Positions 2,446-25,902 of a stretch of DNA of 28,553 bases are shown here, piece after piece. Source of the DNA: a virus; the IMG/VR virus record IMGVR_UViG_3300009414_000053, positions 1-28,553 of that record. One strand, given 5' to 3'. The position numbers and the translations under genes are program-made. The first letter of the stretch is position 1; every line of letters starts with the position of its first letter. The notes beneath the pieces are model-generated. The model worked only from the letters and a program-made list of their open reading frames with translations, did no database searches and was not told the DNA's origin.

Positions 2446-3017
2446 GTCTAGTTGTATCAGTTGAACCTACTGAAGAGCCGGTAACACGGACGGAAGTAAA
2501 AGCACATCTTCGTATTGATACGACAGATGACAACACGCTTCTTGATACATTGATTAGTGCGGCTCGACACTATGCGGAGAACTTTACGAGAAGAGCGTTT
2601 GTGACCCAAACGCTTGTTTTGCGTATGGACGCTTTCCCAGCAACAGACATCGAGTTGCCTAGAGCGCCAGCCGCCAGCGTTACATCAATCGCATACATAG
2701 ATACTGATGGAGCAACCCAAACATGGGCTGCCGAAAACTATACGGTGGACGTTAATACAAAGCCAGCGCGAGTCGTGTTGGCATACGATAAAAGTTATCC
2801 AGACACACGCACTGTGATCAATGCGGTCACTGTGACCTATGTGGCTGGGTATGGAGATGCAACAACTGTCCCCCAAGGAATAAAGTTGGCGATCAAGAGT
2901 CTAGTCGGTCATTGGTACGAGAACCGCGAAGGTTCGACATATCACGACAAGGTACATCTTGTCCCACTTGCAATCGATGCACTGTTGACCCAGTACAGCA
3001 TACCGGAGTTTGTATGA
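2442..3017 (+). CDS. Head-tail connector protein, gp6-like
   Basis: A 191-residue protein of the phage gp6-like (YqbG/gp15) connector family, which forms the ring below the portal that joins head and tail. Family features are visible in order: E-P-V-T-R-T-E-V-K-A-H-L-R-I at residues 12-25, an acidic D-D-N-T-L-L-D-T-L-I-S-A-A-R segment, Y-A-E-N-F-T-R-R-A-F, the central beta region with I-E-L-P-R-A-P, then V-T-Y-V-A-G-Y-G near 140 and the helical L-V-G-H-W-Y-E-N-R-E. The start overlaps the previous stop by ATGA and its own stop overlaps the next start the same way. Position after the capsid gene agrees. Confidence 0.9.
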   Translation: MSLVVSVEPTEEPVTRTEVKAHLRIDTTDDNTLLDTLISAARHYAENFTRRAFVTQTLVLRMDAFPATDIELPRAPAASVTSIAYIDTDGATQTWAAENYTVDVNTKPARVVLAYDKSYPDTRTVINAVTVTYVAGYGDATTVPQGIKLAIKSLVGHWYENREGSTYHDKVHLVPLAIDALLTQYSIPEFV

Positions 3018-3343
3018 GTGTACGAGCCGGCAGATTGCGTCATCGCGTATCGATCCAGAGTCAAAGCACAACGCTTGATTCTTATGGAGAAACCACAGGG
3101 TCTTGGACCACTGATGATACTGTGTGGGCTGCTGTCGAACCGGTAAGTGGAACAGAGCGTGACATCGGCGAAGGTGTTGCTGGCATTGTTACCCATCGGG
3201 TAGTGATGCGGTACAGCTCTGATGTTTCTCCCAAGAAACGATTGCTGTTCGGGACTAGGGTGCTGAACATCTTGTCATCACTTAATCCAGATGAACGCGA
3301 TGCACAACTGACACTCATGTGTTTGGAAGAGGTGTCCGAATGA
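3014..3343 (+). CDS. Head-tail adaptor (head-closure) protein
   Basis: A 109-residue protein of the SPP1 gp16-like head-closure family, which plugs the connector and receives the tail. The start is the ATG inside ATGA at 3014, giving M-S-V-R-A-G-R-L-R-H-R-V-S-I-Q, the typical opening (G-x-L-R-x-R-V-x-I-Q). It is followed by Y-G-E-T-T-G-S-W, V-W-A-A-V-E-P-V-S-G and T-H-R-V-V-M-R-Y, all usual for this family. A longer reading from upstream would overlap the connector gene by about 100 bases and is not supported. It is coupled by ATGA overlaps on both sides. Confidence 0.88.
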   Translation: MSVRAGRLRHRVSIQSQSTTLDSYGETTGSWTTDDTVWAAVEPVSGTERDIGEGVAGIVTHRVVMRYSSDVSPKKRLLFGTRVLNILSSLNPDERDAQLTLMCLEEVSE

Positions 3344-3864
3344 GTAAGTATTTTGAAATATCGGGCGGCTTAACCGGAAATATGGAATTGGAAAAACTCT
3401 TCAAGGAACTTCCGGTCAAGGTGCAACGCAACGCTTGTCGTAGGGCTGCGACTAGAGCCAACAGGGAATTTCGCAATCAGGCGAAGGTAAACGTCCCAGT
3501 AATGAGTGGTAGACTTAGAAAGAATATTAAAAGTAAGGTGTCTCTCAAGCGAGACATAGTGATAGGACGTACTGGTGTTCAGTCTAAAAAGGAACAGGGT
3601 TTCTACGCCAACTACATTGAGTATGGAACTGTTACCAGATACCACAAAAAACCAACTGCTATTTCGACCATGAGGATGCAAGAAGGTGATACCCCGTGGT
3701 GGAGAAAAATAAAAAGCCGACCCGGTGGAAAAATAGCACTTGGTCGTTTCCCAGCAACAAGATTTATGAAAAGGGCGTTTTTGTCTAAGAAAGATGCAGC
3801 AAAACGTGCGTTTCATACTGAGATACATGCAACTTTGATTAGCGAGGCATTTAGCAAGAAATAA
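3340..3864 (+). CDS. HK97 gp10-like neck/tail-completion protein
   Basis: A 174-residue basic protein that begins at the ATG at 3340 overlapping the upstream stop. The part V-P-V-M-S-G-R-L-R-K-N-I with later Y-I-E-Y-G-T-V is the signature of the HK97 gp10-like family, which acts at the head-tail interface or in tail completion. An internal segment rich in K, R and W and a helical lysine-rich C-terminus follow. Gene order (connector, adaptor, gp10-like, terminator-like, tube) is standard for long-tailed phages. A start 21 bases upstream exists but would lengthen the overlap and lacks a ribosome binding site. Confidence 0.88.
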   Translation: MSKYFEISGGLTGNMELEKLFKELPVKVQRNACRRAATRANREFRNQAKVNVPVMSGRLRKNIKSKVSLKRDIVIGRTGVQSKKEQGFYANYIEYGTVTRYHKKPTAISTMRMQEGDTPWWRKIKSRPGGKIALGRFPATRFMKRAFLSKKDAAKRAFHTEIHATLISEAFSKK

Positions 3865-3878
3865 GATGGTTTATTGAA

Positions 3879-4292
3879 ATGGCAATAGAAATAGCATTAC
3901 GAGCATTGTTAGTTGCAGATAGTGATGTAACCGATCTAGTCGGCACGCGGATCTATCCTGAAATGCGACAACAGGGCGAAGACTTCCCAGCAATAGTTTA
4001 TCAGTTGGTATCAACACAACCACAGAATTCTATGGCTGGTGGGGGATCAACAGTGATAACCAGAGCATCGATGTCATTCGACTCGATAGCCGAAACCTAT
4101 GCTGGTGCAAAGACTCTTGCTAGTAAGGTTCGTGCTGCTATTGGAGACTTGGCTAGTAATACATATTCAACGGTAAGGATTTATAGTTGTTTCCATGAAG
4201 GAGACAGCGCAATAACAGAAGATTCACAGGTCGCGGGGGATCGGGGTGTGTCCCGAATCATTAGCGACTACACAATTTGGTATGACAATTGA
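3879..4292 (+). CDS. Tail-completion protein, gp17-like (DUF3168 type)
   Basis: A 137-residue protein. The N-terminal pattern I-A-L-R-A-L-L-V-A-D-S-D-V-T-D-L-V-G-T-R-I-Y-P, followed by D-F-P-A-I-V-Y-Q-L-V-S, is typical of DUF3168/gp17-like tail-completion proteins that cap the neck end of the tail tube. It has no overlap with its neighbours but lies within 15 bases of both. The scattered TTCCCAGCA motif occurs inside it (near 3984) and encodes the F-P-A part. Confidence 0.82.
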   Translation: MAIEIALRALLVADSDVTDLVGTRIYPEMRQQGEDFPAIVYQLVSTQPQNSMAGGGSTVITRASMSFDSIAETYAGAKTLASKVRAAIGDLASNTYSTVRIYSCFHEGDSAITEDSQVAGDRGVSRIISDYTIWYDN

Positions 4293-4308
4293 TTAGGAGA
4301 ACGATCTT

Positions 4309-4734
4309 ATGGCTGGCATGACATCGAATACAACAGACTTTACGTGGGATGGCACAATTACAACAGAAATACTATCGATCAGTGGACCATCGGTATCAAT
4401 ACCGACTATTGATGTGTCCACAATGGATCAGGGAACTGCTGGTACAACCCCAAGTGCAGGTGCAAAGCAATTTCTTAAGGGCATTGCAGATTATGGCGAA
4501 ATTACATTTGAGATTGCTTTTGATATAGATGATAACGCTACTCACCTAGCACTTACAGCCGACATGCTTGTCCCACAAACCATAAAGACATGGAAAATTG
4601 AGTGGCCAGATGGAACTGACTATACAGAAGGCAGTGGTTTTATTACTGCATTTTCACCAACCGGCTCACTTGATGACAAAATGACAGCATCGGTGACAAT
4701 CCGAACCACAACAGCCATCACATGGCCATCATAA
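4309..4734 (+). CDS. Major tail tube protein, copy 1
   Basis: A 141-residue beta-rich protein preceded by a good AGGAG site. It sits where the tail tube subunit is expected, ahead of the chaperone and tape-measure genes. It is clearly homologous to the following gene: shared blocks are S-I-S-G-P, T-I-D-V, G-E-I-T-F-E-I-A, G-F-I-T-A-F-S and the C-terminal L-D-D-K-x-T-A-S-V. The C-terminal block resembles the end of phage lambda gpV-like tube domains. It polymerises, by inference, into the hexameric rings of the tube. Confidence 0.85.
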   Translation: MAGMTSNTTDFTWDGTITTEILSISGPSVSIPTIDVSTMDQGTAGTTPSAGAKQFLKGIADYGEITFEIAFDIDDNATHLALTADMLVPQTIKTWKIEWPDGTDYTEGSGFITAFSPTGSLDDKMTASVTIRTTTAITWPS

Positions 4735-4763
4735 ATAAATAATTAGAAAGTTAGGAGAACATT

Positions 4764-5159
4764 ATGGCAATCACAGCCAACGGAACAACAATATCATTTG
4801 ACGGCAGCGTGCCGCAAGATCTACTATCGATTAGTGGACCAACATTTTCGGTAAACACAATCGATGTAACGAGTATGTCCAGTACACGAAGAGAATTTAC
4901 CAGTGGTCAGTATGACTCTGGTGAAATCACATTTGAGATTGCGTATGATCCCGGATCAGTCACTCACAAGGCATTAGTAACGGATATAGATGCATCAACC
5001 GCCGCAACCGTTTGGTTTATCACATTTTCGGATAACTCAACTTGTACAGGAACAGGTTTTATTACTGCGTTTTCTTCATCTGGCACACTTGATGACAAAT
5101 TGACAGCAAGTGTATCAGTTAAATGTACCGATACTATTGCATATGCAGTAGCACCATAA
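4764..5159 (+). CDS. Tail tube protein, copy 2 (paralogue of upstream gene)
   Basis: A 131-residue beta-rich protein with its own AGGAG site, starting 29 bases after copy 1. It shares the same ordered blocks (S-I-S-G-P, T-I-D-V, G-E-I-T-F-E-I-A, G-F-I-T-A-F-S, L-D-D-K-L-T-A-S-V) while the segments between have diverged, so the pair comes from an old tandem duplication. Copy 2 has shorter loops and lacks the G-T-A-G-T-T-P-S insertion. One copy may form the tube and the other a terminal or decorating ring, or the tube may be mixed. This cannot be decided from sequence. Confidence 0.83.
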   Translation: MAITANGTTISFDGSVPQDLLSISGPTFSVNTIDVTSMSSTRREFTSGQYDSGEITFEIAYDPGSVTHKALVTDIDASTAATVWFITFSDNSTCTGTGFITAFSSSGTLDDKLTASVSVKCTDTIAYAVAP

Positions 5160-5174
5160 TTTGGAGACTAATTC

Positions 5175-5863: not shown

Positions 5864-8652
5864 TGGCAACAGTCGGAACATTGTTAATCAACGTCATCGC
5901 TAAAACTGCGGGTTTCCGTAAGGGACTGAATAAAGCAAACCGTAGGATGAAACTTTTTTCTAATGGGATGAAAAAGGTTTTTGGTGGTCTAAAGCGACTT
6001 GGATTCGTTGCGGCTGCGGCTGCAGTTGCTGCGTTTGGAATGGCACTTAGGTCAACCATTAAGACCTTCGTTGAATTTGAAGCGGGAATGGCAGAAGTCC
6101 GTTCTATTCTTCTTGATGTTTCAGACAGGGTGTTTGCAAAACTAACGAAAGTTGCGCGGCACTTGGGCGCTACCACTAGGTTTACGGCGGTGGAAGCAGC
6201 CAAAGCAATGTCTTTCATGGCGCGTGCTGGTTTTGAAGTGAATGAAGTTATGGCTGCATCGCCACACGTTCTGGACTTAGCATCAGCCGCCGGGATGGAA
6301 CTTGCGGAAACAGCAGACATTGTTTCACAGGTTATACGAGGCATGGGTCTGGAGGCAACAGAAGCACAAAGAGTTACCGATGTTCTTGGTCTTACTGCGG
6401 CTAGAACAAATACATCTGTTTCCCAGTTGGGACAGGCGTTTGGATATGTAGCACCGGTAGCACACGCGCTAGGAATCACGCTAGAACAAACTGCCGCAAT
6501 GCTTGGCATGTTGTCGAACGCGGGTATTCAAGCAGACCGAGCTGGTACTGGTCTTAAAAATATCTTTGCTGAGTTGGCTGCGGAAATTGACGAAAATGGA
6601 ATCTCGGCTTTGGAGAAGTTTACCAAGGGCGGGATCAGCGTTGCTGAAGCGTTTGAGATATTCCAAAAGCGGGGTGGTCCAGCCATCCTTGCTCTTGAGT
6701 CTATGGCCATGAGGACAGATGAACTTATTGCTGTCTTACAATTAGCAGAAGGCACAATTAAGCGAATGAACGATATTCGCATGGACACAATTGAGGGTGC
6801 TTGGAAACTTGTTAGATCTGCTGTGTCTGATCTTCAAATTGAAATAGCAGAAAAGTTAGAACCAACAATACGAAATGTTGAAGAAAGTCTTAGGGAACTT
6901 GCAGTAGCCGCAACACTGGTGGTTGGGAATTTTGCGGAATCAATGGACGGATCTATCGTTTCTGTTCAACAACTTAATGAGGCGATTATTTCTTTAATAA
7001 AAGGAGTAAGGGTATTATCCAATGTTGTTATTAGGGTCGCTGGTGCTGTGATGATAGTTTGGACTTTGGTAAGTGCTACCGTAGTCACAGTTTTTGTTGC
7101 TGCGCTGGAAATAGTAGCCGGTGTCATGTTTGCAATTTCGACACTTTTGGGATTATTTTGGGATGATGCAAAGAGATTTGCTAATGATTTAGAACGTCTG
7201 ATGGTGTCACTGGCAAAAGAAGTTGGAAGACAGTGGGTGTCTGTTGCTGACGCAGTTAAACAAACATTCGGGTCTAGTGAATTTGTCATGGGGCTTCAGG
7301 TTGTTGAGCGTGCGTTGGCAGAACAGTTGAGGTTACAGCAACAAATATATGAAGTCACAGAAGCCAATAACAAGTTGATGGTAGATCCGGTACGTCTTAG
7401 TCAAGCAATAATAAAGTCAGATCAAAAGAGAAACGATTTATTGACAGAGAGACAGAGATTGCAACGCGCTGAAGGTACTGTGAGGCAGACGGCGCATCTT
7501 TTAGGTGATCCCTCACTCATTGATAAATGGTCGCTTAAATTGAGTGGAGTAAAATCGGAAATAGAACGAGTTACGTTGGCAGGAAAAGATTTAAGGGAGA
7601 AACTTGATGCGCTTGATGCTAGATGGCAATTACAAATAAAGGTTGTGACACAGGGTTTAGAACTTGGTGATAAGGACGCGCTCAAGGGAGTAAGAGCAGA
7701 ATTAGAAAAAGAGCTGGAAAAACATGTTAAAGCGCAGAAAGGGGTAAAGGCAACATCAGACGAATGGGGTTTATATGCGGCTCAAATCTCACGAGTATCA
7801 ACTGCGATCACAGATCTAACAGGTCATATAGATGCTTTGAAAGGCGCAGAGGATGCATTTTTCAACGCCAACAAACGTATTGGTGAAACCAAAGCACAGT
7901 TTCAAGAGAGAATGAATTGGATTGAAGAGCAACGAGTGGCTCTGGTAGAGTGGACAAAAGATCAACACGATGAAATTGATAAACTGAATGCTGCGCTTTT
8001 GGGAGTGCCGGTAGAAATTTATTTGGGGGATATGGCGTGGTTGTCTCTTGCATCAATAGCAAATGCAAAAGCACTAGCCGCAGAAGTCAAAGCATTAGAA
8101 GACAAAAACAAACGCATGACTGACGGCCAAGCCCTTATAGAAAAACACACATCGGCAACCGACAAATATACTGCCGCAGAAGCAAGATTAAACAAGATGT
8201 TGGCCGAGGGCTTCATCGATGATCGAACACGGGTGCTTGAATTGGGAGAACTGGCAAAAGCAAGGGATGCGGCACTTGGTATTGGTAAACCAGACATGGG
8301 GAAAGCGATAGAGGGTATTCAATCCGCATTCGGTACTGTGAAAATGAAAGCCCAGTTTGGTGGTGGAGCGCAGAGTGTTGCAACAAAACAACTCAATACC
8401 GCTACTCAGCAGTTAAGTAGTTTGAAATCAATCGCTACCAATACAGGGACGATGGCATCAACAACCGGCGCAAACAGTCTTGGTATGCAGTTAGCCGGCG
8501 CAATGAACGATGTGACTTTCACTATTATAGGTATGGACAAACAAGAAGAGTTGTTGCGTGAAGGCAATGAGACAAGAGATAGTTCTTTGTCCGAATTGAA
8601 AAAGATAAATGCTGGGGTAGCGGCGATGAGTAGTAGTGGAGTTTTACAATGA
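5863..8652 (+). CDS. Tail tape-measure protein (TP901 type)
   Basis: A 929-residue protein whose length sets the tail length; at the usual ~1.5 angstrom per residue this suggests a tail near 140 nm (inference). The N-terminus is basic and helical. Residues ~65-250 form the TP901 tape-measure core: F-E-A-G-M-A-E-V-R-S-I, F-T-A-V-E-A-A-K-A-M-S-F-M-A-R-A-G-F, then T-S-V-S-Q-L-G-Q-A-F and L-S-N-A-G-I-Q-A-D-R-A-G-T-G-L-K-N. A strongly hydrophobic stretch follows at about 375-430, as in other tape measures that insert in the membrane. The remainder is long charged helices with coiled-coil character (about 480-800) and a Ser/Thr/Gly-rich end. Its ATG overlaps the preceding stop, and its stop overlaps the next start. 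Confidence 0.95.
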   Translation: MATVGTLLINVIAKTAGFRKGLNKANRRMKLFSNGMKKVFGGLKRLGFVAAAAAVAAFGMALRSTIKTFVEFEAGMAEVRSILLDVSDRVFAKLTKVARHLGATTRFTAVEAAKAMSFMARAGFEVNEVMAASPHVLDLASAAGMELAETADIVSQVIRGMGLEATEAQRVTDVLGLTAARTNTSVSQLGQAFGYVAPVAHALGITLEQTAAMLGMLSNAGIQADRAGTGLKNIFAELAAEIDENGISALEKFTKGGISVAEAFEIFQKRGGPAILALESMAMRTDELIAVLQLAEGTIKRMNDIRMDTIEGAWKLVRSAVSDLQIEIAEKLEPTIRNVEESLRELAVAATLVVGNFAESMDGSIVSVQQLNEAIISLIKGVRVLSNVVIRVAGAVMIVWTLVSATVVTVFVAALEIVAGVMFAISTLLGLFWDDAKRFANDLERLMVSLAKEVGRQWVSVADAVKQTFGSSEFVMGLQVVERALAEQLRLQQQIYEVTEANNKLMVDPVRLSQAIIKSDQKRNDLLTERQRLQRAEGTVRQTAHLLGDPSLIDKWSLKLSGVKSEIERVTLAGKDLREKLDALDARWQLQIKVVTQGLELGDKDALKGVRAELEKELEKHVKAQKGVKATSDEWGLYAAQISRVSTAITDLTGHIDALKGAEDAFFNANKRIGETKAQFQERMNWIEEQRVALVEWTKDQHDEIDKLNAALLGVPVEIYLGDMAWLSLASIANAKALAAEVKALEDKNKRMTDGQALIEKHTSATDKYTAAEARLNKMLAEGFIDDRTRVLELGELAKARDAALGIGKPDMGKAIEGIQSAFGTVKMKAQFGGGAQSVATKQLNTATQQLSSLKSIATNTGTMASTTGANSLGMQLAGAMNDVTFTIIGMDKQEELLREGNETRDSSLSELKKINAGVAAMSSSGVLQ

Positions 8653-9593
8653 CCCTTGTATACACTGAGTTACTTCCCAGCAGGACAATTACGAGAGACA
8701 AGGGTGACGTTGGCGCAACAAGAACCTTCATGGTGTATGACGATGCTGGTACACAGCTTCTCATTGACGATGCGATCAACTCGTTCGATGGTCCACAGAT
8801 CGGTGACGAGCATCCTGATGTAGATGGGATCTACGCATTTGGATATTCAATAGAGGCATCTAGCAAAAGGGGTTCTGCCTACGAGGTAGAATTTTCTTAC
8901 AAAGTCCCAGTGGAAGATACAGATCCCGGCGGTTCAGAAGATGCGTTTACCGGTGGTCTAAATACAGATGTTGAGCCGTTAGCGATTGACGATGGTGGAA
9001 ATAGTGGGGGTGGTTCTGACGATGATGATGATGATGGTATTACTGAGGGCGATTTTGATATTGCCTTTACCGGCGTTAGCATTGTTACAAGCACAAGTCT
9101 GCAAGATGCGTGGGTAAGTGATCCTGCCATCCCAGCAAGTGGAGAACAGACTAACAATTTTCAGGGTACTCCTACCGTTACTGCTTTCACAAACACGGTA
9201 CATGAAGGCGGTACTCCGGTAACTGCTTATGTCCCTCAAGCCACTATCACCCTCAGTACACAATATGCTGGCTCTACATTTAATCTGGCAGGACTTCATC
9301 TTATTACCGGCATGCGAAATCAATCTACCTTTATGGGTCTAAGTGTCGGATCAGTATTGTTTATGGGGATGTCTGTTCAGAGATCCGAAATAAGTTTGTA
9401 TGACATCTCATATGAGTTTTTGTGGGATGGGTGGAGTCATATGCGCCAAAGCTGTCGAAGGTTTACAGATGAGGCAAGTGTTGGTAAGCCGAATTTTACT
9501 GGTGCTACCGAAGGCATATTTGCTTCAGGTACTCTTCCCATCTATCTTCTCCAGCCCACATTGGGATTAACCAGTTTTGGATTTGCACCATGA
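8649..9593 (+). CDS. Probable minor tail / distal virion protein
   Basis: A 314-residue protein coupled to the tape measure by an ATGA overlap, the usual place for distal-tail genes. I do not recognise the family. The first ~100 residues look like an Ig-like or beta-sandwich module (short beta strands, Y-E-V-E-F-S-Y-K-V-P-V). A glycine- and aspartate-rich linker follows (about 112-128, with a run of six D), then a second domain rich in G, T, S and aromatic residues containing L-H-L-I-T-G-M and W-D-G-W-S-H. This two-domain plan with a flexible acidic hinge suits a virion surface or tail-tip protein. Confidence 0.6.
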   Translation: MTLVYTELLPSRTITRDKGDVGATRTFMVYDDAGTQLLIDDAINSFDGPQIGDEHPDVDGIYAFGYSIEASSKRGSAYEVEFSYKVPVEDTDPGGSEDAFTGGLNTDVEPLAIDDGGNSGGGSDDDDDDGITEGDFDIAFTGVSIVTSTSLQDAWVSDPAIPASGEQTNNFQGTPTVTAFTNTVHEGGTPVTAYVPQATITLSTQYAGSTFNLAGLHLITGMRNQSTFMGLSVGSVLFMGMSVQRSEISLYDISYEFLWDGWSHMRQSCRRFTDEASVGKPNFTGATEGIFASGTLPIYLLQPTLGLTSFGFAP

Positions 9594-12379: not shown

Positions 12380-12396
12380 AGGAAAGAAGGAAATAA

Positions 12397-13326
12397 ATGC
12401 CGGGAGCAGTAATAACTCAGTGGACAGGCGCAGTAGATGGCGATTATTCAGATAATGCTAACTGGACAAATAATGTACCGACTACAAACGGTAATGCCGA
12501 TGTATATTTCACAACAGGAAGTGTTGACTGTAATGAAAATCTCCCAGTAAGAGCAGACGAGGTTGAATATTTACAATTAACAATTGGTCCAAAATATACT
12601 GGTACAATTGGAAGTTCGACAGTTCCATTAGAACTTTATGATGGTTTAAATGGGGGAGTTGTCGATGTATTTTACGGACAAAAAACCGGACAAGTATTTC
12701 TTTACGCCAATATTACAGGCGACCTTGTTGTTGAATCTACCTCTACAAGCAATCCATCCTTGGCAATTGTGGCTTCTGCTGCTGGTTCTGTGTCTTCAAT
12801 AAAGATCACTGGAGAAACATACATTACAGGTGGCAATGGGACGGTTTTGTTTGAAAAACTTGTTCTGAGTGGAGATGTATACATGGTAGATTGCAAGGGG
12901 GTAACGCTTGAGGTTGGTGAGGATTGTGTTATTGCAACAACTGATTTCTTTGTGGGAGAGGGAAGGTTGTTATTGAACAGTTTGGCTACATCCGGTGGAA
13001 TAACGATAACGGATGGGCTAGTAGAAATATTGGGTAGTGGGAGTGTAAATTTAGATTCTCTCACGATGTATGGTGGAACAGTTAAATGGAAACTAACGCC
13101 CTCGTCTAGTGTTAATATCATAACTTTATTGACTATGTATGGTGGATTTTTTGATGCAAGAGGGGCAACTGCGCCATCGATGACAATTACTGATACAACG
13201 ATATACAAGGGGGCGATTATAGATGAGCGTAATGGACTTTCCAACATTACCTATACCAATTCCATTGTCACTCACGGAGGGGTAATTATGTGTGATCCGT
13301 TTAGGACGATAGAGGTGAATCCATAA
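12397..13326 (+). CDS. Beta-helix-like surface protein, copy 2 (paralogue)
   Basis: A 309-residue protein with an AAGGAAAT-type site upstream. It matches copy 1 along its whole length: W-T-G-A-V-D-G-D-Y-S-D-N-A-N-W at the start, L-T-I-G-P-K-Y-T-G-T-I-G near 66, F-F-D-A-R-G-A-T-A-P near 250 and I-D-E-R-N-G-L near 275. The segments between have diverged in sequence but not in spacing, as expected of solenoid rungs. Retention of two full-length tandem copies suggests a hetero-oligomeric fibre or two receptor specificities (inference). This is the last virion-type gene before the DNA-metabolism module. Confidence 0.65.
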   Translation: MPGAVITQWTGAVDGDYSDNANWTNNVPTTNGNADVYFTTGSVDCNENLPVRADEVEYLQLTIGPKYTGTIGSSTVPLELYDGLNGGVVDVFYGQKTGQVFLYANITGDLVVESTSTSNPSLAIVASAAGSVSSIKITGETYITGGNGTVLFEKLVLSGDVYMVDCKGVTLEVGEDCVIATTDFFVGEGRLLLNSLATSGGITITDGLVEILGSGSVNLDSLTMYGGTVKWKLTPSSSVNIITLLTMYGGFFDARGATAPSMTITDTTIYKGAIIDERNGLSNITYTNSIVTHGGVIMCDPFRTIEVNP

Positions 13327-13335
13327 TCTCCCAGC

Positions 13336-14452: not shown

Positions 14453-14484
14453 CCTCCCAGCCGGCCTAACAGTCGGTTGGGAGG
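14453..14484 (+). terminator. GC-rich hairpin before the ATPase gene
   Basis: CCTCCCAGCCG (14453-14463) pairs with CGGTTGGGAGG (14474-14484), an 11-bp stem with one G-U pair and a 10-base loop. No T-run follows, so it may be an attenuator or mRNA-end structure between the virion and replication transcripts. The left arm contains the dispersed CTCCCAGC motif. Confidence 0.5.
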
Positions 14485-15852: not shown

Positions 15853-16734
15853 ATGGCAAACGACAACACAGTTTCTTTGAAGATTGAAGATATTAAGATC
15901 AACGGTGACACGCAACCGCGAGTTTCCATTGATGACTTGGCAGTAGCCGACTATGCATATGCATATGAGTCGGGTGAGAATATGCCCCCTGTTGTCGTTT
16001 TCTTTGATGGGGTTAATCATTGGCTGGCTGACGGATTCCATCGTTGGCATGCGGCACGAAGGGCTGTTCTTACAGATCTCCCAGCAACAATAAAGGATGG
16101 GACACGCGAAGATGCCCAGTGGTATGCGATTTCCGCTAACCAAACACATGGCTTGCGCCGGTCAAATAAAGACAAACGCAGATCCGTCACAATGGCTCTT
16201 GGGATTCATCCCGATTGGAGTGATTACCAGATAGGTGAGCATGTCGGCGTATCGCATGAGATGGTCAGAATGGTTCGTGCTTCACTAGCAGAGTTTGCTA
16301 GTGAAACCGTCCGTAAGACACGCGATGGCAGGGAGATCGATACCACGAATATTGGTGGTTCTCCCAGTGAGGTATTTGTCAAGAATCCTCCGATGCCTAC
16401 TGATACTGTTGACGCAATCGGCATGTTAGTGCCAGAACATCTGGTTAATAAGTGGAATGAACTGAATAGAGAAGTAAATGAGATGATCGATCACGCGAAT
16501 GCGTTACAGGCATTTGTTGCTCATCTTGGTGATCGCATGGATGGGCTGGGTGCAGATGTTTCAATTAGTGCGATGCGTGCTGATGTGATCAACATTGTTT
16601 CTGCAATCCAATTGACCGCCACGCCCCATGCAATCTGTTGCTACTGCGGTGGTGATGGTTGCGAGACATGTACTAATCGTGGCTGGCTATCCAAGCACAT
16701 GTTTAACTGTGTGCCTGAAGAATTGAAGATATGA
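15853..16734 (+). CDS. ParB-like DNA-binding protein with C-terminal zinc-ribbon-like motif
   Basis: A 293-residue protein; the start chosen has AAAGGAAG at 15838-15845, whereas a GTG at 15793 would need 20 implausible extra residues. Residues ~10-110 form a ParB/sulfiredoxin-type N-terminal domain: D-T-Q-P-R, Y-A-Y-A-Y-E-S-G-E, L-A-D-G-F-H-R-W-H-A-A. A helix-turn-helix follows around 120-160 (Q-I-G-E-H-V-G-V-S-H-E-M-V). The C-terminus carries C-C-Y-C-G-G-D-G-C-E-T-C, a probable zinc-binding knuckle not found in plasmid ParB. Phage ParB-like proteins act as transcription regulators or DNA-binding nucleases. The ATGA overlap with the methyltransferase suggests joint function. Confidence 0.78.
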   Translation: MANDNTVSLKIEDIKINGDTQPRVSIDDLAVADYAYAYESGENMPPVVVFFDGVNHWLADGFHRWHAARRAVLTDLPATIKDGTREDAQWYAISANQTHGLRRSNKDKRRSVTMALGIHPDWSDYQIGEHVGVSHEMVRMVRASLAEFASETVRKTRDGREIDTTNIGGSPSEVFVKNPPMPTDTVDAIGMLVPEHLVNKWNELNREVNEMIDHANALQAFVAHLGDRMDGLGADVSISAMRADVINIVSAIQLTATPHAICCYCGGDGCETCTNRGWLSKHMFNCVPEELKI

Positions 16735-18020
16735 ATGTGGATATTGCCCCAATCAATCATCTCTCGTTATGCGCAGGATACGGAGGTATCGATCTCGGAC
16801 TCTCAAGAGTTTTGCCAGATGTGCGAACAATCGCTTATGTGGAGATCGAAGCATTCGCAGTCGCAAACTTGGTCGAAAAGGTTGAAAAGGGTTGGCTGGA
16901 TGAAGCACCTGTCTGGACGAACCTTAAAACCTTCGATGCAAAACCCTTTTGCGGAATGGTGGATGTCTTGTCAGGAGGTTTCCCCTGCCAGCCGTTCAGT
17001 CATGCCGGCAACAGAGAGTCTACTGACGATCCTAGACATCTATTTCCCGATGTCGAACGAATCATCGGAGAGTGTAGACCTTCAATCATCTTTCTGGAAA
17101 ATGTCGAAGGAATCATCTCAGCAAAACTCCACGGAGAACCAGACACTTCGGTTCTCAAGCATGTCTTGGAAAGATTGGAAGACTTGGGTTACAAAGCAAC
17201 GGCAGGAATATTCAGTGCGGAAGAAGTCGGCGCACCTCACAGACGAAAGAGGGTCTTTATCTGTGGCATTTCCAACGATGACTGTGAGCGATTCGTTCGG
17301 AAGCAGAAGAGCCACAGCGAAGAAGGATCACTGGAAGAGCAACGATGGAACGACCCTGACAGATGCGGTTCAATCTCCCAGCAACAATCTCCCAGCAGTA
17401 TGGTCAACCCCAAGTGCGTTTCAGCAGGGCGGGACGGCTCAGAAATTCAGGGACAGACAACTGAAGTGGGCAGAGAAATATCACAACCATCCTCCACTGA
17501 ACATTCAAGTGGAGATGGAAGACCAGAACATATCGTGGGCAACACCACAAGTGACGGACTCAACGCGAGACAACCAGATAAGGAAGCCGGACGAACTGAG
17601 CGATGCTGCCAAGCAGGGCGGGTGTCGGAATCTGAGGGAAGATGTTGTCAATTGGGCAACACCGAACACGATGGATCATCTGAGCAGGAGCGAGGAAGCA
17701 CTTCGCAACCAAGCGAAGGGTCAGAGAAAGGGTCGCACGCGACCTTGCAATCTGAGGGAACAGATAGATCCCAAGTCAAACGAGATTTATTCCCAAACAG
17801 ACCAAACCAATCCCAGCAATGGTGGGAATACCCAAGAACAATCGGAGAAGCCGAAGAAACTCAATCCCCTTTGGGTGTGCCAACTGATGCTGGGTTCAGA
17901 GTATCCAGCGACTTGGTTAATGCCACTAGAGTGGATTCGCTCCGACTCGGAGGCAACGGTGTAGTGCCGGCAACCGCAGCAAAAGCATTTATGTATTTGA
18001 TGGATGAATTGACACGATGA
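16731..18020 (+). CDS. C5 cytosine DNA methyltransferase
   Basis: A 429-residue protein that methylates cytosine at C5 using S-adenosylmethionine. Motif I is S-L-C-A-G-Y-G-G-I-D-L-G-L (12-24), motif IV G-G-F-P-C-Q-P-F with catalytic C86, motif VI F-L-E-N-V (121-125), motif VIII A-P-H-R-R-K-R-V-F-I (168-177), and motif X G-N-G-V-V-P with A-A-K-A (408-419). Between about 182 and 375, where the target-recognition domain belongs, the frame is low-complexity, dominated by S, Q, E, G and R, with short repeats such as G-N-T-x-x-D-G. The same DNA is open in the +1 frame (see the overlapping entry). Overlaps both neighbours by ATGA. Target site unknown; it may protect phage DNA from restriction. Confidence 0.9.
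   Translation: MNVDIAPINHLSLCAGYGGIDLGLSRVLPDVRTIAYVEIEAFAVANLVEKVEKGWLDEAPVWTNLKTFDAKPFCGMVDVLSGGFPCQPFSHAGNRESTDDPRHLFPDVERIIGECRPSIIFLENVEGIISAKLHGEPDTSVLKHVLERLEDLGYKATAGIFSAEEVGAPHRRKRVFICGISNDDCERFVRKQKSHSEEGSLEEQRWNDPDRCGSISQQQSPSSMVNPKCVSAGRDGSEIQGQTTEVGREISQPSSTEHSSGDGRPEHIVGNTTSDGLNARQPDKEAGRTERCCQAGRVSESEGRCCQLGNTEHDGSSEQERGSTSQPSEGSEKGSHATLQSEGTDRSQVKRDLFPNRPNQSQQWWEYPRTIGEAEETQSPLGVPTDAGFRVSSDLVNATRVDSLRLGGNGVVPATAAKAFMYLMDELTR
16735..17964 (+). CDS. Overlapping +1-frame protein with W-x-TP-x3-D repeats (possible dual coding)
   Basis: A second open frame of 409 codons lies wholly inside the methyltransferase gene; its ATG is four bases after the methyltransferase ATG, so one ribosome site could serve both. 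From residue 179 (base 17269) it shows repeated units: F-P-T-M-T-V-S-D, W-S-T-P-S-A-F, W-A-T-P-Q-V-T-D, W-A-T-P-N-T-M-D, with ends such as T-L-T-D-A-V, N-L-R-E-D-V and N-L-R-E-Q-I. Near the end is L-N-P-L-W-V-C-Q-L-M. I recognise this pattern (W-P-T-P repeats closed by L-N-P-x-W-V) from phage and bacterial proteins, often annotated as methylase-related or hypothetical. Before residue 179 the frame may only shadow the methyltransferase. Whether it is translated alone, by frameshift, or not at all is unknown. Confidence 0.4.
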   Translation: MWILPQSIISRYAQDTEVSISDSQEFCQMCEQSLMWRSKHSQSQTWSKRLKRVGWMKHLSGRTLKPSMQNPFAEWWMSCQEVSPASRSVMPATESLLTILDIYFPMSNESSESVDLQSSFWKMSKESSQQNSTENQTLRFSSMSWKDWKTWVTKQRQEYSVRKKSAHLTDERGSLSVAFPTMTVSDSFGSRRATAKKDHWKSNDGTTLTDAVQSPSNNLPAVWSTPSAFQQGGTAQKFRDRQLKWAEKYHNHPPLNIQVEMEDQNISWATPQVTDSTRDNQIRKPDELSDAAKQGGCRNLREDVVNWATPNTMDHLSRSEEALRNQAKGQRKGRTRPCNLREQIDPKSNEIYSQTDQTNPSNGGNTQEQSEKPKKLNPLWVCQLMLGSEYPATWLMPLEWIRSDSEATV

Positions 18021-19696
18021 AACTTAGACCGTACCAGAACGATGCCATCGAAGCCATTGAAAATGGTTGGGAAGATAACACTTCCCAGTTGTTGGTTCTC
18101 CCAACAGGTACAGGCAAGACCATCGTGTTCACCAAACTCATTGACCGGATGATCATGGGCGGTAGAACACTTGTCATTGCCCATCGTGAAGAATTGATTT
18201 GGCAAGCTGTCGCAAAAATAAAAGTTATCACTGGCATTCAACCCTCCATAGAGATGGCTGACTATCGTGCAGACGAAGGGTTCTTCTCAAGGAATCCAGT
18301 TGTGGTATCAAGCATCCAAACACAGAATGCGTGCAAGCGGTACGCCAAATTCGACCCAACACAATTTGAGTTGTTAGTAATCGATGAAGCCCATCATGCA
18401 CCAGCAACAAGTTACAAGAAGTTGATTGACTACTACAAGAAACACAACCCGAACATCAAAATCCTTGGGGTCACGGCTACGCCGGATCGTGCTGACAAGA
18501 AAGCACTTGGCATGATCTTTGATACGGTTGCCTACGAATTGAAGATTCAAGATGCTATTGATGATGGCTGGCTCGTCCCAATCTCCCAGCGATCAGTCAT
18601 CGTCAATGGTCTTGATTTTTCTTGTATCAAGACAACGGCTGGCGATCTGAACGGAAAGCAACTCGCGGCAGTAATGGAGTACGAATCAAATTTGCATGGC
18701 ATAGCCCAGCCCACACTGGAAATTGTTGGTGATCGCAAGGCGCTTGTGTTCGCATCTAGCGTGGCACATGCTGAAAGACTATCGGAGATCTTTAATAGGT
18801 ACAAGCCCAATAGGTCGGAGTGGGTATGTGGCAAGACACCAAAGGATTCTCGTAGAGAAACCCTGCGTAGGTTTGCAGACGGTAAGACACAGATCCTTGT
18901 AAACGTGGGGTGTTTCACTGAGGGATTTGATGAGCCAAGCATTGAGGTAATCGTGCTGGCTAGACCCACTAAGTCCAGAGCATTGTTTGCACAGATGGTA
19001 GGTCGTGGCACAAGAACATTGACGGGAACGCTGGATGGATTGGATGATGCTGATGTACGCAAAGAAGCAATTGTAAATTCCACAAAGCAAAATCTCGAAC
19101 TGATCGACTTTGTTGGCAACACTGGAAGACATCGACTGATTCATGCGACTGATCTTCTTGGTGGTGACTACACAGATGAGGAAGTTTCATTTGCCAACAC
19201 CATCATGGAAGCAACTGAGAAGTCTACCGATGTTAAAGAAGCATTGGAACAATCTAAAGAAGAGGTTGCCAAGCAAGCGGAAGAAAAGCGATTGCGGGAT
19301 GAGGCAGAGCAACAACGCAGACAACAGATACGAGCGAAGGTTGACTACTCATCGAAGAGCAATGACCCATTTGCCATATTACAAATCAAGCCAGTAGAAA
19401 GGCATGAAGGGTGGTATACCAACAAGCCCTGTTCGGATCGACTCAGCGCCGGCCTTAAAAAGTTTGGTGTAGAAGCCGACATAATTGCTGGGCTGGATTC
19501 GCGTGAGGGTTCAGCGTTGATCGGCAAACTAATTGAGCGATCCAAGAATGGCAAGTGTACTTACAAGCAAGCGAAGTTACTTCGTAAGTATGGATATTCA
19601 GGTAATGAAAGTAAGAAAGAAGCGTCAAGTATTATTGATGGATTAGCAGCCAATGGTTGGCGGCGCAATCAACACACCGAAGCCCCAAGATATTAG
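18017..19696 (+). CDS. Superfamily 2 DEAD/DEAH helicase
   Basis: A 559-residue ATP-dependent helicase or translocase. Motif order is L-R-P-Y-Q at 3-7 (Q-motif-like), Walker A P-T-G-T-G-K-T at 29-35, A-H-R-E-E-L at 55-60, D-E-A-H at 123-126, V-T-A-T-P-D-R, then in the second lobe V-G-C-F-T-E-G-F-D and Q-M-V-G-R-G-T-R. This is the common phage or restriction-type helicase core of about 420 residues. After a glutamate/lysine coiled-coil (about 410-450) comes an extra C-terminal region to 559 with Y-K-Q-A-K-L-L-R-K-Y-G-Y, a motif I associate with small DNA-binding tails of phage helicases. It overlaps the methyltransferase stop by ATGA. Likely used in replication or recombination. Confidence 0.9.
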   Translation: MKLRPYQNDAIEAIENGWEDNTSQLLVLPTGTGKTIVFTKLIDRMIMGGRTLVIAHREELIWQAVAKIKVITGIQPSIEMADYRADEGFFSRNPVVVSSIQTQNACKRYAKFDPTQFELLVIDEAHHAPATSYKKLIDYYKKHNPNIKILGVTATPDRADKKALGMIFDTVAYELKIQDAIDDGWLVPISQRSVIVNGLDFSCIKTTAGDLNGKQLAAVMEYESNLHGIAQPTLEIVGDRKALVFASSVAHAERLSEIFNRYKPNRSEWVCGKTPKDSRRETLRRFADGKTQILVNVGCFTEGFDEPSIEVIVLARPTKSRALFAQMVGRGTRTLTGTLDGLDDADVRKEAIVNSTKQNLELIDFVGNTGRHRLIHATDLLGGDYTDEEVSFANTIMEATEKSTDVKEALEQSKEEVAKQAEEKRLRDEAEQQRRQQIRAKVDYSSKSNDPFAILQIKPVERHEGWYTNKPCSDRLSAGLKKFGVEADIIAGLDSREGSALIGKLIERSKNGKCTYKQAKLLRKYGYSGNESKKEASSIIDGLAANGWRRNQHTEAPRY

Positions 19697-19708
19697 AAAG
19701 GTCAGTCA

Positions 19709-20739: not shown

Positions 20740-20941
20740 AAACCAACTTATCCTTGAAGAACGTGTACGCAGATACAAACAAATATGTATGCGAGTTATG
20801 TCGGATTCTCTACCTCCCAGTGATCCCCAAATTTACTTGTTGATCATGTTGGACTTACCGCCAGCCAAGACCCGCAGGGAAGCGGTTGATCTTATCTCCC
20901 AGCATCTAAATGAGGACGGCAATGAGTTACAATTGGATTGA
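20729..20941 (+). CDS. Hypothetical small protein
   Basis: A 70-residue, mainly helical charged protein that overlaps the previous gene by 11 bases. AAAGGATGTTGAACG upstream gives an acceptable ribosome site. It contains P-P-S-D-P-Q-I-Y and L-I-S-Q-H-L-N; both are encoded across copies of the dispersed CTCCCAG motif (20814 and 20895). Family not recognised. It lies directly before the primase and overlaps it by 20 bases. Confidence 0.5.
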   Translation: MKDKNQLILEERVRRYKQICMRVMSDSLPPSDPQIYLLIMLDLPPAKTRREAVDLISQHLNEDGNELQLD

Positions 20942-22298: not shown

Positions 22299-22300
22299 GT

Positions 22301-22513: not shown

Positions 22514-22761
22514 GTAAAGAAAAAAGGTATCGTGAAAGGACTTGGAAAGAAGTTGCTCTGTTATATAACCAGAAGTTTCATACTAGGGTGTGTCCCAGTT
22601 CACTTGAACGCACACACCGAAGATTGCTCAAGAGGATACAAGCAAAGTTCATGGAAGACCAAGTGATACGAGATTGGCTAGAGGACAACGGCTACCTCAG
22701 ATCGGAATCTCCCAGTGGCAAAATCTCCCAGCAGGTATCGGAATCTCCCAGTGGCAATTAA
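22510..22761 (+). CDS. Small putative DNA-binding protein with repeat-derived C-terminus
   Basis: An 83-residue basic protein coupled by ATGA. The N-terminal 55 residues are helical and look like a small helix-turn-helix (T-W-K-E-V-A-L-L-Y-N-Q-K-F, then S-S-L-E-R-T-H-R-R-L-L). The last ~20 residues (S-E-S-P-S-G-K-I-S-Q-Q-V-S-E-S-P-S-G) are encoded by three copies of the CTCCCAG motif in a 21-bp direct repeat, so this tail seems to have been added by spread of the repeat. Function unknown. Confidence 0.55.
   Translation: MSKEKRYRERTWKEVALLYNQKFHTRVCPSSLERTHRRLLKRIQAKFMEDQVIRDWLEDNGYLRSESPSGKISQQVSESPSGN
22701..22757 (+). repeat. 21-bp direct repeat with three CTCCCAG motifs
   Basis: ATCGGAATCTCCCAGTGGCA plus one A occurs at 22701-22721 and again at 22737-22757, a period of exactly 36 bases, with a third motif (TCTCCCAGCA) between. 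Both copies place a GTG (22715 and 22751) in frame with the downstream endonuclease. Confidence 0.9.
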
Positions 22762-23098: not shown

Positions 23099-23116
23099 CT
23101 GTGAGTGGGGCAGTTG

Positions 23117-23632
23117 TCAACTACCAGTAAGCCATTCGTTGTGGATGTCATCGATCCACCAAGACTCTGGATTATCTCCCAGTGCTGATGCAAGTTTCGC
23201 AGTCAGTTTATCCTTGATGCCATCGTAAGTCGGATTCTGTGGTCTACGAAGCAATTCCTTATGAGGTTCAGGGTTCTCAACCTTGATGTAGACAATCGCA
23301 TATGTATCTGGTGAGATGTTTTCATCTTCATCCAAGCACCCTTCGTCAGTCATCCATTCGCACAACAACTTTTCCAATTCTTCTAAATCGTTAGAGGTAT
23401 ACTCGCAGTTTTCAATTATCAAGTAATACTTTTTACCTTCACCATCTGGTCTACCAAAATTGAACCTTCCATCAACATTCACTAGGATGTGATATGTTTC
23501 CATAACATACCCACCTTCTGTCCATGAGTCCATGTATGTCAATGCGGTTACCACATCGTCAGGATCATCGTGGTTTTCATAACTTCCAGTAACCTTCTTA
23601 CGAGTGGCTTGCATAGTCTTTAGATGTTCCAT
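23117..23632 (-). CDS. Hypothetical acidic protein
   Basis: A 171-residue acidic protein, last gene of the leftward operon; its start overlaps the upstream stop (TAATG) and GAGGA precedes it. Visible features are a beta-rich middle (M-E-T-Y-H-I-L-V-N-V-D-G then K-Y-Y-L-I-I-E-N-C-E-Y), a helical part with E-L-E-K-L-L-C-E-W-M, and tryptophans near the end (E-S-W-W-I-D-D). I do not recognise the family. The terminator follows 19 bases downstream. Confidence 0.6.
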   Translation of the reverse strand: MEHLKTMQATRKKVTGSYENHDDPDDVVTALTYMDSWTEGGYVMETYHILVNVDGRFNFGRPDGEGKKYYLIIENCEYTSNDLEELEKLLCEWMTDEGCLDEDENISPDTYAIVYIKVENPEPHKELLRRPQNPTYDGIKDKLTAKLASALGDNPESWWIDDIHNEWLTGS

Positions 23633-23841: not shown

Positions 23842-23855
23842 TAGACATTATCCTT

Positions 23856-24095
23856 TCAAGATAAGTTAAGTTGAAAACCTACTGTGTCCCAGTTGGTTCG
23901 TGTGGCTTCTTCTGGTAGTTCCAAACGCAGTGCGATGATATGTTGAAGTTCTGTTGCACGACCCATCGTATGTAGCACATGTGCGAATGCCTGAATCTTC
24001 TTAGCGTTTCGCATCTTGCCGTACCGTGTTACGAGTTGATCGTCCGTCATCGTGTTGATCCGTTTCCTTTCATGTTTTAGGGTTGCTTCACTCAT
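23856..24095 (-). CDS. Hypothetical small helical protein
   Basis: A 79-residue basic-then-neutral helical protein; the start overlaps the upstream stop by ATGA. It contains M-T-D-D-Q-L-V-T-R-Y-G-K-M-R-N-A-K-K and H-V-L-H-T-M-G-R-A-T-E-L. The family is not recognised. Likely translated by coupling because no separate ribosome site is apparent. Confidence 0.55.
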   Translation of the reverse strand: MSEATLKHERKRINTMTDDQLVTRYGKMRNAKKIQAFAHVLHTMGRATELQHIIALRLELPEEATRTNWDTVGFQLNLS

Positions 24096-24475
24096 TTGTA
24101 TGGGTACTCCGAATCATCTCTATCATCCTCAAACCTTTTCACAACACGACCAAGACAAGTCATGGAGTCATCTCTAGGGACATCGCCCCCACCCTTCGCA
24201 AGGAATTCTGCAAAGAAGTATTTGAGGACTTGGGATATTTGATCGGCATTAAAATCTGGCTTGGAGTTGCAGAAGGGATGTCCAACTCCCAAGCAATCTT
24301 CTACCAGCCACATGATGATGCCTCTCCCAGCATCGGTATCGTTCCCCCACAAATCCTCTACGAATGCATAGAGGTCTGCCCCAGTGGCTTCCTTAAGAAA
24401 CTCCGGTATGTCATCAAGTGAATTTATTACTGGTGTGTCATTCGGTATATCTCTGTGGTACTTACTTTGTCTCAT
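24092..24475 (-). CDS. Hypothetical acidic protein
   Basis: A 127-residue protein. The start M-R-Q-S-K-Y is chosen because GAAAGGACACCG directly precedes it, the same site used by its operon neighbours; a start 14 codons upstream would overlap the next gene. It is acidic and helical (L-D-D-I-P-E-F-L-K-E-A-T-G-A-D, A-F-V-E-D-L-W-G-N-D). No recognised domain. Confidence 0.58.
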   Translation of the reverse strand: MRQSKYHRDIPNDTPVINSLDDIPEFLKEATGADLYAFVEDLWGNDTDAGRGIIMWLVEDCLGVGHPFCNSKPDFNADQISQVLKYFFAEFLAKGGGDVPRDDSMTCLGRVVKRFEDDRDDSEYPYK

Positions 24476-24486
24476 CGGTGTCCTTT

Positions 24487-24732: not shown

Positions 24733-25175
24733 TAGGCGTTCTCCTTCCCAGCAAGTTTGTTAGCGACTTGCATGATGTTGTGGAACTTGTCCAAGTGATC
24801 ATTGAGCATTGCCCCCGCTTCTTTCATAACCGCAATGTCGTGTTCCATGTCCTTGGACTCATCAAATGCTAAGCGAGAAATCATCGTTCCAATCTCGCAT
24901 GGGTTCGGCAAGTTGTCGTAGATTGCTTTGATTGTTGAATCTCCCAGTGGCTCTGGTGCATGCTCCTGTCCCAATTGCTTGATTGCTTCTTGAATGACAT
25001 CTTCTCCCCATTCGTGTCCTTCGCGGTCTTCTGAACATTGAGCAGATAAGTCAGACAAAAGATCATTGACTCTATTCTCTGGTAAGCAATTCAAGCATAA
25101 GTCATCGCCACCGACTCTAGTCACCTCTTCGGGTCGGTCAATTACTTCTTCACATTTGTCACAGTAAGTTGGCAT
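24732..25175 (-). CDS. Hypothetical protein with N-terminal zinc-ribbon
   Basis: A 147-residue acidic protein. M-P-T-Y-C-D-K-C is taken as the start because GAAAGGATAACT lies just upstream; an extra 17 codons are open but unsupported. C-D-K-C at 5-8 and C-L-N-C near 27-30 make a four-cysteine zinc ribbon. The rest is helical with D-L-L-S-D-L-S-A-Q and a C-terminal amphipathic helix (L-D-K-F-H-N-I-M-Q-V-A). Role unknown; the ribbon suggests protein or nucleic-acid contact. Confidence 0.62.
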   Translation of the reverse strand: MPTYCDKCEEVIDRPEEVTRVGGDDLCLNCLPENRVNDLLSDLSAQCSEDREGHEWGEDVIQEAIKQLGQEHAPEPLGDSTIKAIYDNLPNPCEIGTMISRLAFDESKDMEHDIAVMKEAGAMLNDHLDKFHNIMQVANKLAGKENA

Positions 25176-25177
25176 AG

Positions 25178-25555
25178 TTATCCTTTCGTTAAGTCCCAGT
25201 TGTAGAAGTAACCTTGGTGTGGACAATCTTTTGGCTTGGCATCAGCAGTCCACTCAAAGTTAGGATCACGGCTAAGTGTTGGGTAGATGATTCCATTTTG
25301 GTCATCAAGGAATGCCAAGGTAATACCATCGTCACGACTCAGAGTCCTGTTGGCAATAGCAGGATGTTCGCGGTTCATCTCAGCGACCAGTTCGTAGTAA
25401 TCCTTACCACCAAACACTCCGTACCCTTCGTAGTCTACTTCTATCCACACATTGTCGGCGTTGTCCCGCATGCATACAGTGAATGTCGCAACATCACTGT
25501 ATCGGCTTGCGATGGACTCGTTTGTATCTGCTGTCATCCAACTAAAAAATCCCAT
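25178..25555 (-). CDS. Conserved phage protein, G-F-F-S-W-M-T-A-D-T family
   Basis: A 125-residue protein starting with M-G-F-F-S-W-M-T-A-D-T-N-E-S-I, an N-terminus I recognise from a conserved family of small phage proteins of unknown function. Further pieces are V-D-Y-E-G-Y-G-V-F-G-G-K-D-Y-Y, a Y-E-L-V-A-E-M-N segment and Y-F-Y-N-W-D-L-T near the end. GAAAGGAAAGAAC precedes the ATG. It is the second gene behind the leftward promoter. Confidence 0.72.
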   Translation of the reverse strand: MGFFSWMTADTNESIASRYSDVATFTVCMRDNADNVWIEVDYEGYGVFGGKDYYELVAEMNREHPAIANRTLSRDDGITLAFLDDQNGIIYPTLSRDPNFEWTADAKPKDCPHQGYFYNWDLTKG

Positions 25556-25577
25556 GTTCTTTCCTTTCTGGTTCTAG

Positions 25578-25736
25578 TTAATCCGCTTCAATTAAAGACA
25601 AGTCTTTTGTGTCAATTGTTTCTATTGACCCATCCGAAAATTGCACAAGCAATTTTCCATATACAGTTAAAGAGACAATAATTCCGGCGCGGTTGTTTGC
25701 GTGTACTGAGTCGCCTATTTCATAGTTCCGTTCCAT
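25578..25736 (-). CDS. Very small beta-barrel-like protein, first gene of the leftward operon
   Basis: A 52-residue protein beginning M-E-R-N-Y-E-I-G-D-S-V and ending L-S-L-I-E-A-D, with GAAAGGATAAAGA before the ATG. Pattern: I-G-D-S-V-H-A, G-I-I-V-S-L, G-K-L-L-V-Q-F-S-D-G-S-I-E-T-I, which is the strand order of a small SH3/KOW-like barrel (G-D-x-V, strand, V-x-F-x-D-G). It is the gene nearest the promoter at 25775-25803. Its reading frame and ribosome site match its neighbours, which supports it as real. Function not known. Confidence 0.72.
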   Translation of the reverse strand: MERNYEIGDSVHANNRAGIIVSLTVYGKLLVQFSDGSIETIDTKDLSLIEAD

Positions 25737-25774
25737 TCTTTATCCTTTCTGCCGGCTGTATTACCGACCCCCAT

Positions 25775-25803
25775 AGTATAACAGACAATAGTCTACTAGT
25801 CAA
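25775..25803 (-). promoter_or_regulatory. Strong sigma-70-type leftward promoter
   Basis: Read leftward: TTGACT (complement of 25798-25803), a spacer of exactly 17 bases (25781-25797), and TATACT (complement of 25775-25780). It lies about 40 bases ahead of the first leftward ATG. The CTCCCAGCA repeat cluster abuts its upstream edge at 25801. Confidence 0.85.
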
Positions 25804-25902
25804 GTCCAAATCTCCCAGCACCTGAATCTCCCAGCACCTGAATCTCCCAGCACCTGAATCTCCCAGCACCTGAATTTCCCAGCAAGTCCAAATCTCCCAG
25901 CA
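25801..25902 (+). repeat. Cluster of six (T/C)TCCCAGCA motifs, mostly at 16-bp spacing
   Basis: TCTCCCAGCA occurs at 25811, 25827, 25843, 25859 and 25893, and TTTCCCAGCA at 25875; the first five copies are spaced 16 bases (unit ATCTCCCAGCACCTGA). A 20-base sequence starting CAAGTCCAAATCTCCC is present at both ends (25801-25820 and 25883-25902). The cluster abuts the -35 box of the leftward promoter, so it is a candidate operator, activator site or replication iteron. Confidence 0.92.

Follow-up and report, generated by a model that had tools for sequence, protein, structure and literature searches.

Relation to described systems

Phage iteron origins and plasmid centromeres (lambda ori, R1 parC) have direct repeats in non-coding DNA next to a promoter, and the density of FtsK orienting polar sequences (KOPS) rises toward one locus. 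Octamers of the type of KOPS, or of the SpoIIIE recognition sequences (SRS), have been suggested for the Bacillus phages Sam46 and Sam112 (PMC8190038). Lambdoid phages are enriched in Chi, mostly in the interval from the replication genes to the packaging site, and selection for Chi acts in those phages that lack an inhibitor of the host enzyme (Bobay et al. 2013, PMC3784561). In Cluster A (L5/Bxb1-type) mycobacteriophages, 20–30 asymmetric stoperators, one set of which lies at the early leftward promoter, are aligned with transcription, lose their function on reversal, and have words that diverged in relatives (PMC6550527, PMC9283540). The current study concerns the word TCCCAGY (Y, C or T), present as about 30 scattered copies and one tandem array on the + strand of IMG/VR record IMGVR_UViG_3300009414_000053 (28,553 bases, the whole of which is referred to as the window), which comes from an uncultivated, tailed and probably marine phage. 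The copies are tentatively interpreted as a polar signal read along the DNA axis. A preliminary description of this DNA had stated that no system of this kind was known, which was too strong in view of lambdoid Chi, mycobacteriophage stoperators and KOPS.

TCCCAGY resembles lambdoid Chi in being a short asymmetric word that is over-represented beyond composition and codon use, in one orientation and in any frame; provided that the terminase end adjoins the right end, its densest part would likewise fall in the interval that separates replication genes from packaging site. It differs from Chi in its word, its higher density and its tandem array at a promoter. Among phage systems, stoperators come nearest, sharing the number of asymmetric sites over the genome (about 30) and a set of them at a leftward promoter (TTGACT-17-TATACT); however, the core is 7 bp rather than 13–14 bp, the strand is constant and independent of transcription, contrary to the stoperator orientation rule, and the sites lie mainly within genes instead of in short intergenic spaces. 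As with KOPS and SRS (FtsK, SpoIIIE), the word is short and polar, occurs in genes in any frame and becomes denser toward one locus, but it has a tandem array, it is unlike GGGNAGGG or GAGAAGGG, and no FtsK-gamma domain was found in the small terminase. The direct-repeat array, non-coding and close to both replication genes and a promoter, resembles iteron origins, whereas such origins and centromeres have no set of about 30 single, same-strand, genome-wide copies.

Abundance, polarity and specificity of the word

An exact count gave 36 copies of TCCCAG on the + strand of the window and three on the − strand, matching the earlier estimate by eye; no + copy is found beyond 25895, and none lies in the last 2.6 kb. 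The corresponding counts were 19+/1− for TCTCCCAG, 12+/0− for TCTCCCAGCA and 3+/0− for TCTCCCAGTGG. All 36 + copies are followed by C or T, so that the common word is TCCCAG[C/T]. This core of the motif as first described stands, but the TCTC prefix is not general: it is confined to the right half, where the word lengthens to ATCTCCCAGY, and the left 12.4 kb holds eight TCCCAGY, all without a preceding TCTC. Likewise, the number of copies was correct but they are not independent events, since six of the 36 form one tandem array (25809–25900), leaving 30 scattered + sites, and clusters of three (22708–22751) and two copies (17374–17397) are found among these. After collapsing clusters, the window retains about 27 independent scattered sites. 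The longer genome, obtained by adding 8 kb on the left from contig L009 (8003–10505 identical to window 1–2503), which carries two additional + sites, has 29.

A trinucleotide (order-2 Markov) background predicted 4.7 copies of TCCCAG left of the array, where 30 were observed. Synonymous codons were also shuffled among all genes, keeping every protein, in 2000 runs: 25 in-gene copies of TCCCAG were observed against 5.5±2.2 (0/2000 runs), and 11 of TCTCCCAG against 0.33. The excess was present in each gene class, namely left structural (8 vs 1.8), rightward replication (10 vs 2.6) and leftward genes (7 vs 1.65), with 0/2000 in each. The relatives compared were L011 (88–94% nucleotide identity), cousin D (L076), E (L077) and L017/L031. 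In an unsupervised ranking, TCCCAG was first of 3854 hexamers in the window and first of 3591 in L011, and was unremarkable in cousins D and E.

Sites in rightward genes are spread over the three reading phases (8, 6 and 6), and together with the codon shuffle this bears out the earlier statement that codon use is no explanation. Outside the array, the longer genome has 32+/3− copies (p=4e-7; 3e-6 with clusters collapsed). At about 23 kb, where gene direction reverses, the GC skew reverses its sign as well, while the strand of the motif is unchanged; the leftward genes contain six + sites and no − copies, and the array is likewise on +. An oriented DNA signal, as had been proposed, is thus supported, and which function it serves we infer.

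One-mismatch words showed no comparable enrichment and degenerate matches no + bias, indicating stringent recognition. Similarity among sites is limited to about −3 to +9 around the word, and the flanks of the array are not copied. Together with the fixed strand, these features are those of a recognition site rather than a copied repeat. Most sites lie mid-gene; 10 of the 30 have a gene end at 60 bp or less, against a random mean of 6.5. Density increases about tenfold toward the array, from 0.25 per kb in the 8-kb left extension to 0.67, 0.62, 1.43, 1.00 and 2.63 per kb, and a uniform density was rejected for the longer genome (Kolmogorov-Smirnov p=0.004; 0.03 with clusters collapsed).

Location of the scattered sites

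The scattered sites are listed below. The contexts reported earlier were found again, with FPAT at 2635 and 3749, ISQQQ at 17376, SPSE at 16362 and the spacer at 13329, as was the + orientation at 23177, 24325 and 24942 inside leftward genes.

2635..2641, + strand: TCCCAGC (FPAT), common to L011
3494..3500, + strand: TCCCAGT
3749..3755, + strand: TCCCAGC (FPAT)
3985..3991, + strand: TCCCAGC (FPAI)
6421..6427, + strand: TCCCAGT, tape measure gene
8675..8681, + strand: TCCCAGC
8905..8911, + strand: TCCCAGT
9130..9136, + strand: TCCCAGC, retained in L011 despite differing flanks (82% identity)
12540..12548, + strand: TCTCCCAGT
13327..13335, + strand: TCTCCCAGC, spacer, immediately 5' of the ATG at 13336
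14455..14461, + strand: TCCCAGC, intergenic
16077..16085, + strand: TCTCCCAGC, ParB-like gene
16360..16368, + strand: TCTCCCAGT, ParB-like gene (SPSE)
17372..17397, + strand: pair of AATCTCCCAGCA, cytosine-5 methyltransferase gene; stretch absent from E, gapped alignment in D
17811..17817, + strand: TCCCAGC
18083..18089, + strand: TCCCAGT, helicase gene
18582..18590, + strand: TCTCCCAGC, helicase gene; GTG CAG in D and E (V to S in the window phage)
20815..20821, + strand: TCCCAGT
20895..20903, + strand: TCTCCCAGC, ahead of the primase-like open reading frame (ORF)
22593..22599, + strand: TCCCAGT
22706..22751, + strand: cluster of three AATCTCCCAG, end of the 83-aa ORF 22510–22761 and start of the RusA-like resolvase ORF
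23175..23183, + strand: TCTCCCAGT, in a leftward gene
23887..23893, + strand: TCCCAGT, in a leftward gene
24323..24331, + strand: TCTCCCAGC, in a leftward gene
24746..24752, + strand: TCCCAGC, in a leftward gene
24940..24948, + strand: TCTCCCAGT, in a leftward gene
25194..25200, + strand: TCCCAGT, in leftward genes

The 83-aa ORF, which has a weak match to the Lsr2 DNA-binding domain (E=0.005, below the cut-off), owes its last 18 residues (ESPSGKISQQVSESPSGN) to the triple TCTCCCAG cluster.

Origin of sites in related phages

Where relatives could be aligned, sites were gained by substitution in place within conserved genes, with protein length kept in most, and not by insertion. At 2635, 3749, 3985 and 6421, other codons in D and E specify identical or nearly identical residues (FPAT, FPAI and VSQLG in one or both of them). 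Neither this comparison nor the background-corrected count, which showed both excess and strand bias, bore out the conditions that the preliminary description had named as refuting its proposal. The helicase site at 18584 involved a change from V to S in the window phage, and L017/L031 acquired two new sites by substitution, one changing R to P and one synonymous. Examples are the changes from TCTCGTAGC to TCTCCCAGC and from GTGCCGGCA to GTCCCAGCA. The sites at 17376, 8905 and 12542 fall in stretches that are missing or gapped in D and E, hence weakly constrained places also collect sites. Between the window and L011 eight of eight sites are kept, which is weak evidence because the flanks are 82–100% identical.

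The array region

The tandem array belongs to about 550 bp of non-coding DNA, bounded by a terminator and a promoter, in which both direct-repeat arrays of the window lie:

25775..25803, − strand: leftward promoter P_left, TTGACT-17-TATACT, predicted by scan, directly adjoining the array
25809..25900, + strand: tandem array of five 16-bp units (AATCTCCCAGCACCTG) and one at 25891, with six TCCCAGC
25962..26290, no strand assigned: second direct-repeat array, 12-bp unit with variants of GTACAAGCCACG, about 27 copies and an 84-bp higher-order period, non-coding, right of the TCCCAG array
26307..26328, − strand: leftward terminator-like hairpin, right-hand boundary of the array region

One further single-site match to the 12-bp unit was seen at 27135.

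Cousin D carries a TCCCAG array on the same strand and in the same place, upstream of its own promoter (TTGCGT-17-CATACT), with at least 10 units of TCCCAGTG before it runs off the contig end. Its scattered TCCCAG show no excess (6+/5−). The top-ranked 7-mer of the codon shuffle in D was TCCCAAC (9 vs 1.3), which occurs 10+/4−, mostly in the right half. The one-letter likeness between TCCCAAC and TCCCAG was noticed post hoc, and the ranking itself was blind to it. These data suggest that the scattered word varies from one related phage to another. The right half of D also has five TCTCCCAAC sites on +, and TCTCCCAACA is found at three similar contexts in E.

When the array pattern was sought in collections of viruses and bacteria, most hits were chance matches or unrelated repeats (Bacteroidia, cyanobacteria and others). 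An unrelated 41-kb phage, IMGVR_UViG_3300000302_000009 (L211–L212), has TCCCAGY 72+/3−, mostly in 9-bp clusters, and its one-strand TCCCAG is probably of a different nature.

Possible function of the signal

Because the same strand carries the signal in both gene directions, we interpret the TCCCAGY copies as polar marks for a reader that follows the DNA axis, Chi-like or, alternatively, KOPS-like, with a probability of about 0.4. A reader would approach from one genome end and act on meeting the word in one orientation. It would most likely be Chi-like, the word turning an end-degrading or end-processing nuclease-helicase, of the host or the phage, into a maker of recombination substrate. In the KOPS-like variant, for which the same pattern is expected, the word would orient a translocase and the array would be its loading site. 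The gene set fits a Chi-like life, and comprises the terminase with an upstream HNH endonuclease, a Sak4/RecA-like ATPase, a single-stranded DNA-binding protein (SSB), a helicase, a RusA-like resolvase and a repair-exonuclease-like protein. More speculatively, and rather unlikely, the phage may encode its own tracking system, a nuclease-helicase or translocase steered by the approximately 30 same-strand TCCCAGY marks, with the P_left array as its loading site or its destination and with words differing among relatives; such a system would be the virus's own equivalent of Chi or KOPS, with co-evolving specificity.

Several observations weigh against this reading. A tight array (six copies here, at least 10 in D) is not required for Chi, and the array word of D (TCCCAGTG) differs from its scattered word, TCCCAAC. 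The density of 1–2.6 sites per kb is far over that of Chi in lambdoids (0.2 per kb), and the gradient loses significance (p=0.14) when clusters are collapsed and only the window is considered. The small terminase is of P27 type only; with no FtsK-gamma domain found in it, packaging by KOPS through such a domain was rejected, though a host FtsK could serve instead. The likeness to Chi was drawn from the phage sequence, and in four bacterial or archaeal genomes TCTCCCAG had no overall strand bias, which is uninformative since these were draft contigs.

The sites might instead be operators scattered over the genome like those of Cluster A mycobacteriophages, in which an immunity repressor bound to asymmetric sites at the early leftward promoter and to 20–30 others silences the prophage. 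The array touches a conserved leftward promoter of sigma-70 type, the site number is that of L5-type phages (20–30), versions of the word have diverged within the phage group (TCCCAGY here, TCCCAAC in D), and one right-end gene matches Pfam Phage_L5_gp82 (2.6e-16). However, stoperators follow transcription and fail when reversed, while here all sites are on + even in leftward genes and most are mid-gene; moreover, no integrase was recognized in the window, nor any repressor with Pfam, PHROGs and NCBIfam at trusted scores, and we regard this explanation as doubtful. A role in replication or segregation, with the arrays at 25.8–26.3 kb serving as iterons or a centromere (an origin beside the A+T-rich region of P_left) and the scattered copies as secondary sites for an initiator, primase or ParB-type protein, would agree with the placing of two direct-repeat arrays between terminator and promoter, with the primase-like, helicase and ParB_N-domain genes, and with the retention of the array in D, whose replication proteins are about 52–68% identical. 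It accounts for the array but not for the scattered copies: iterons are not normally single, one-strand sites in structural genes at a distance of over 20 kb, a primase usually recognizes a trinucleotide, and parS sites are palindromic. We consider it unlikely.

A spreading micro-repeat had also been put forward in the preliminary description. Such a repeat, selfish or neutral and spreading from the array by template switching or slippage, is suggested by the tandem arrays, the clusters at 22.7 and 17.4 kb, the sites that D/E lack or align only with gaps (17376, 8905, 12542), and a proximity to gene ends above random (9 sites within 30 bp vs 3.5, p=0.006). As the main process it is improbable, since no flank is shared beyond −3 to +9, gains were substitutions in place that left protein length unchanged in most conserved genes, and the word is exact with an obligatory C or T at position 7. 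The absence of common flanks likewise spoke against the scattered sites being copies of the 16-bp array unit, and this was rejected. Codon usage, base composition or chance could be considered for the left half, where sites often encode F/V/I-P-A/V in phase 1, but this was refuted by the codon shuffle in every gene class, by the top rank of the hexamer in two phages and by the sites on the non-coding strand of leftward genes, and can practically be dismissed. An RNA-level function was rejected in view of the constant strand in leftward genes and of an inverted repeat near 23.1 kb, terminator-like on the − strand, between the convergent operons. A search of Rfam gave no match.

About 30 same-strand copies of a 7-letter word are kept by measurable selection, at a cost in codon choice and sometimes in an amino acid, which indicates a directional function at the DNA level that the annotated genes leave unexplained. 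If the polar signal is Chi-like, the recombination word of an uncultured host could be read from its phage; if its reader is encoded by the phage, it would be, as far as we know, the first viral polar guide system of its kind.

Genome context

The rightward genes of the window encode a major capsid protein, tail proteins including the tape measure, a repair-exonuclease-like protein, a Sak4-like ATPase and an SSB, followed by a ParB-like protein (ParB_N domain), a cytosine-5 methyltransferase, a helicase, a primase-like protein and a RusA-like resolvase; small leftward genes occupy the region from 23.1 kb onward. The helicase and primase are 68% and 52% identical to those of cousin D. D alone was returned when further relatives of the right half were sought by primase and promoter-pattern scans, and the annotated phage collection contained no close relative of the window phage. 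Another record, L010, is identical over window positions 184–12164, and therefore the left half has been assembled independently.

The last 2.6 kb (25904–28553) rests on this contig only. It has a G+C content of about 0.51, against about 0.45, no + TCCCAG and its own leftward genes; a search for relatives of one of these genes found none. This part may have originated by a chimeric join at the array. ATTCTCGAACCCTAACAGACCCCGAACA, just before the 12-bp array, reappears slightly changed at the extreme end of the window, and for this reason the contig probably ends in a second copy of that array. The leftward gene at 27913–28320 is the one matching Phage_L5_gp82 (also phrog_586), a possible hint at an actinobacterial host.

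Adjacent paralogous gene pairs were seen at 4309–5159 and 11462–13326 (about 42% and 38% identical). The 8-kb left extension encodes an HNH endonuclease, a P27-type small terminase, a large terminase, a portal and a protease, and the combination of HNH endonuclease with these terminase subunits suggests packaging of cos type. A 30-bp tandem repeat (GGACAACAAGCAGGTGAAACATTTTCAGCA, about 4.6 copies) lies at L009 2082–2220, within a gene left of the terminase genes. Repeated GTCCGCA/TGCGGAC words occur in apparently non-coding DNA at L011 1–160 and at the left end of the L076 record, and these left ends are possibly another regulatory or end region.

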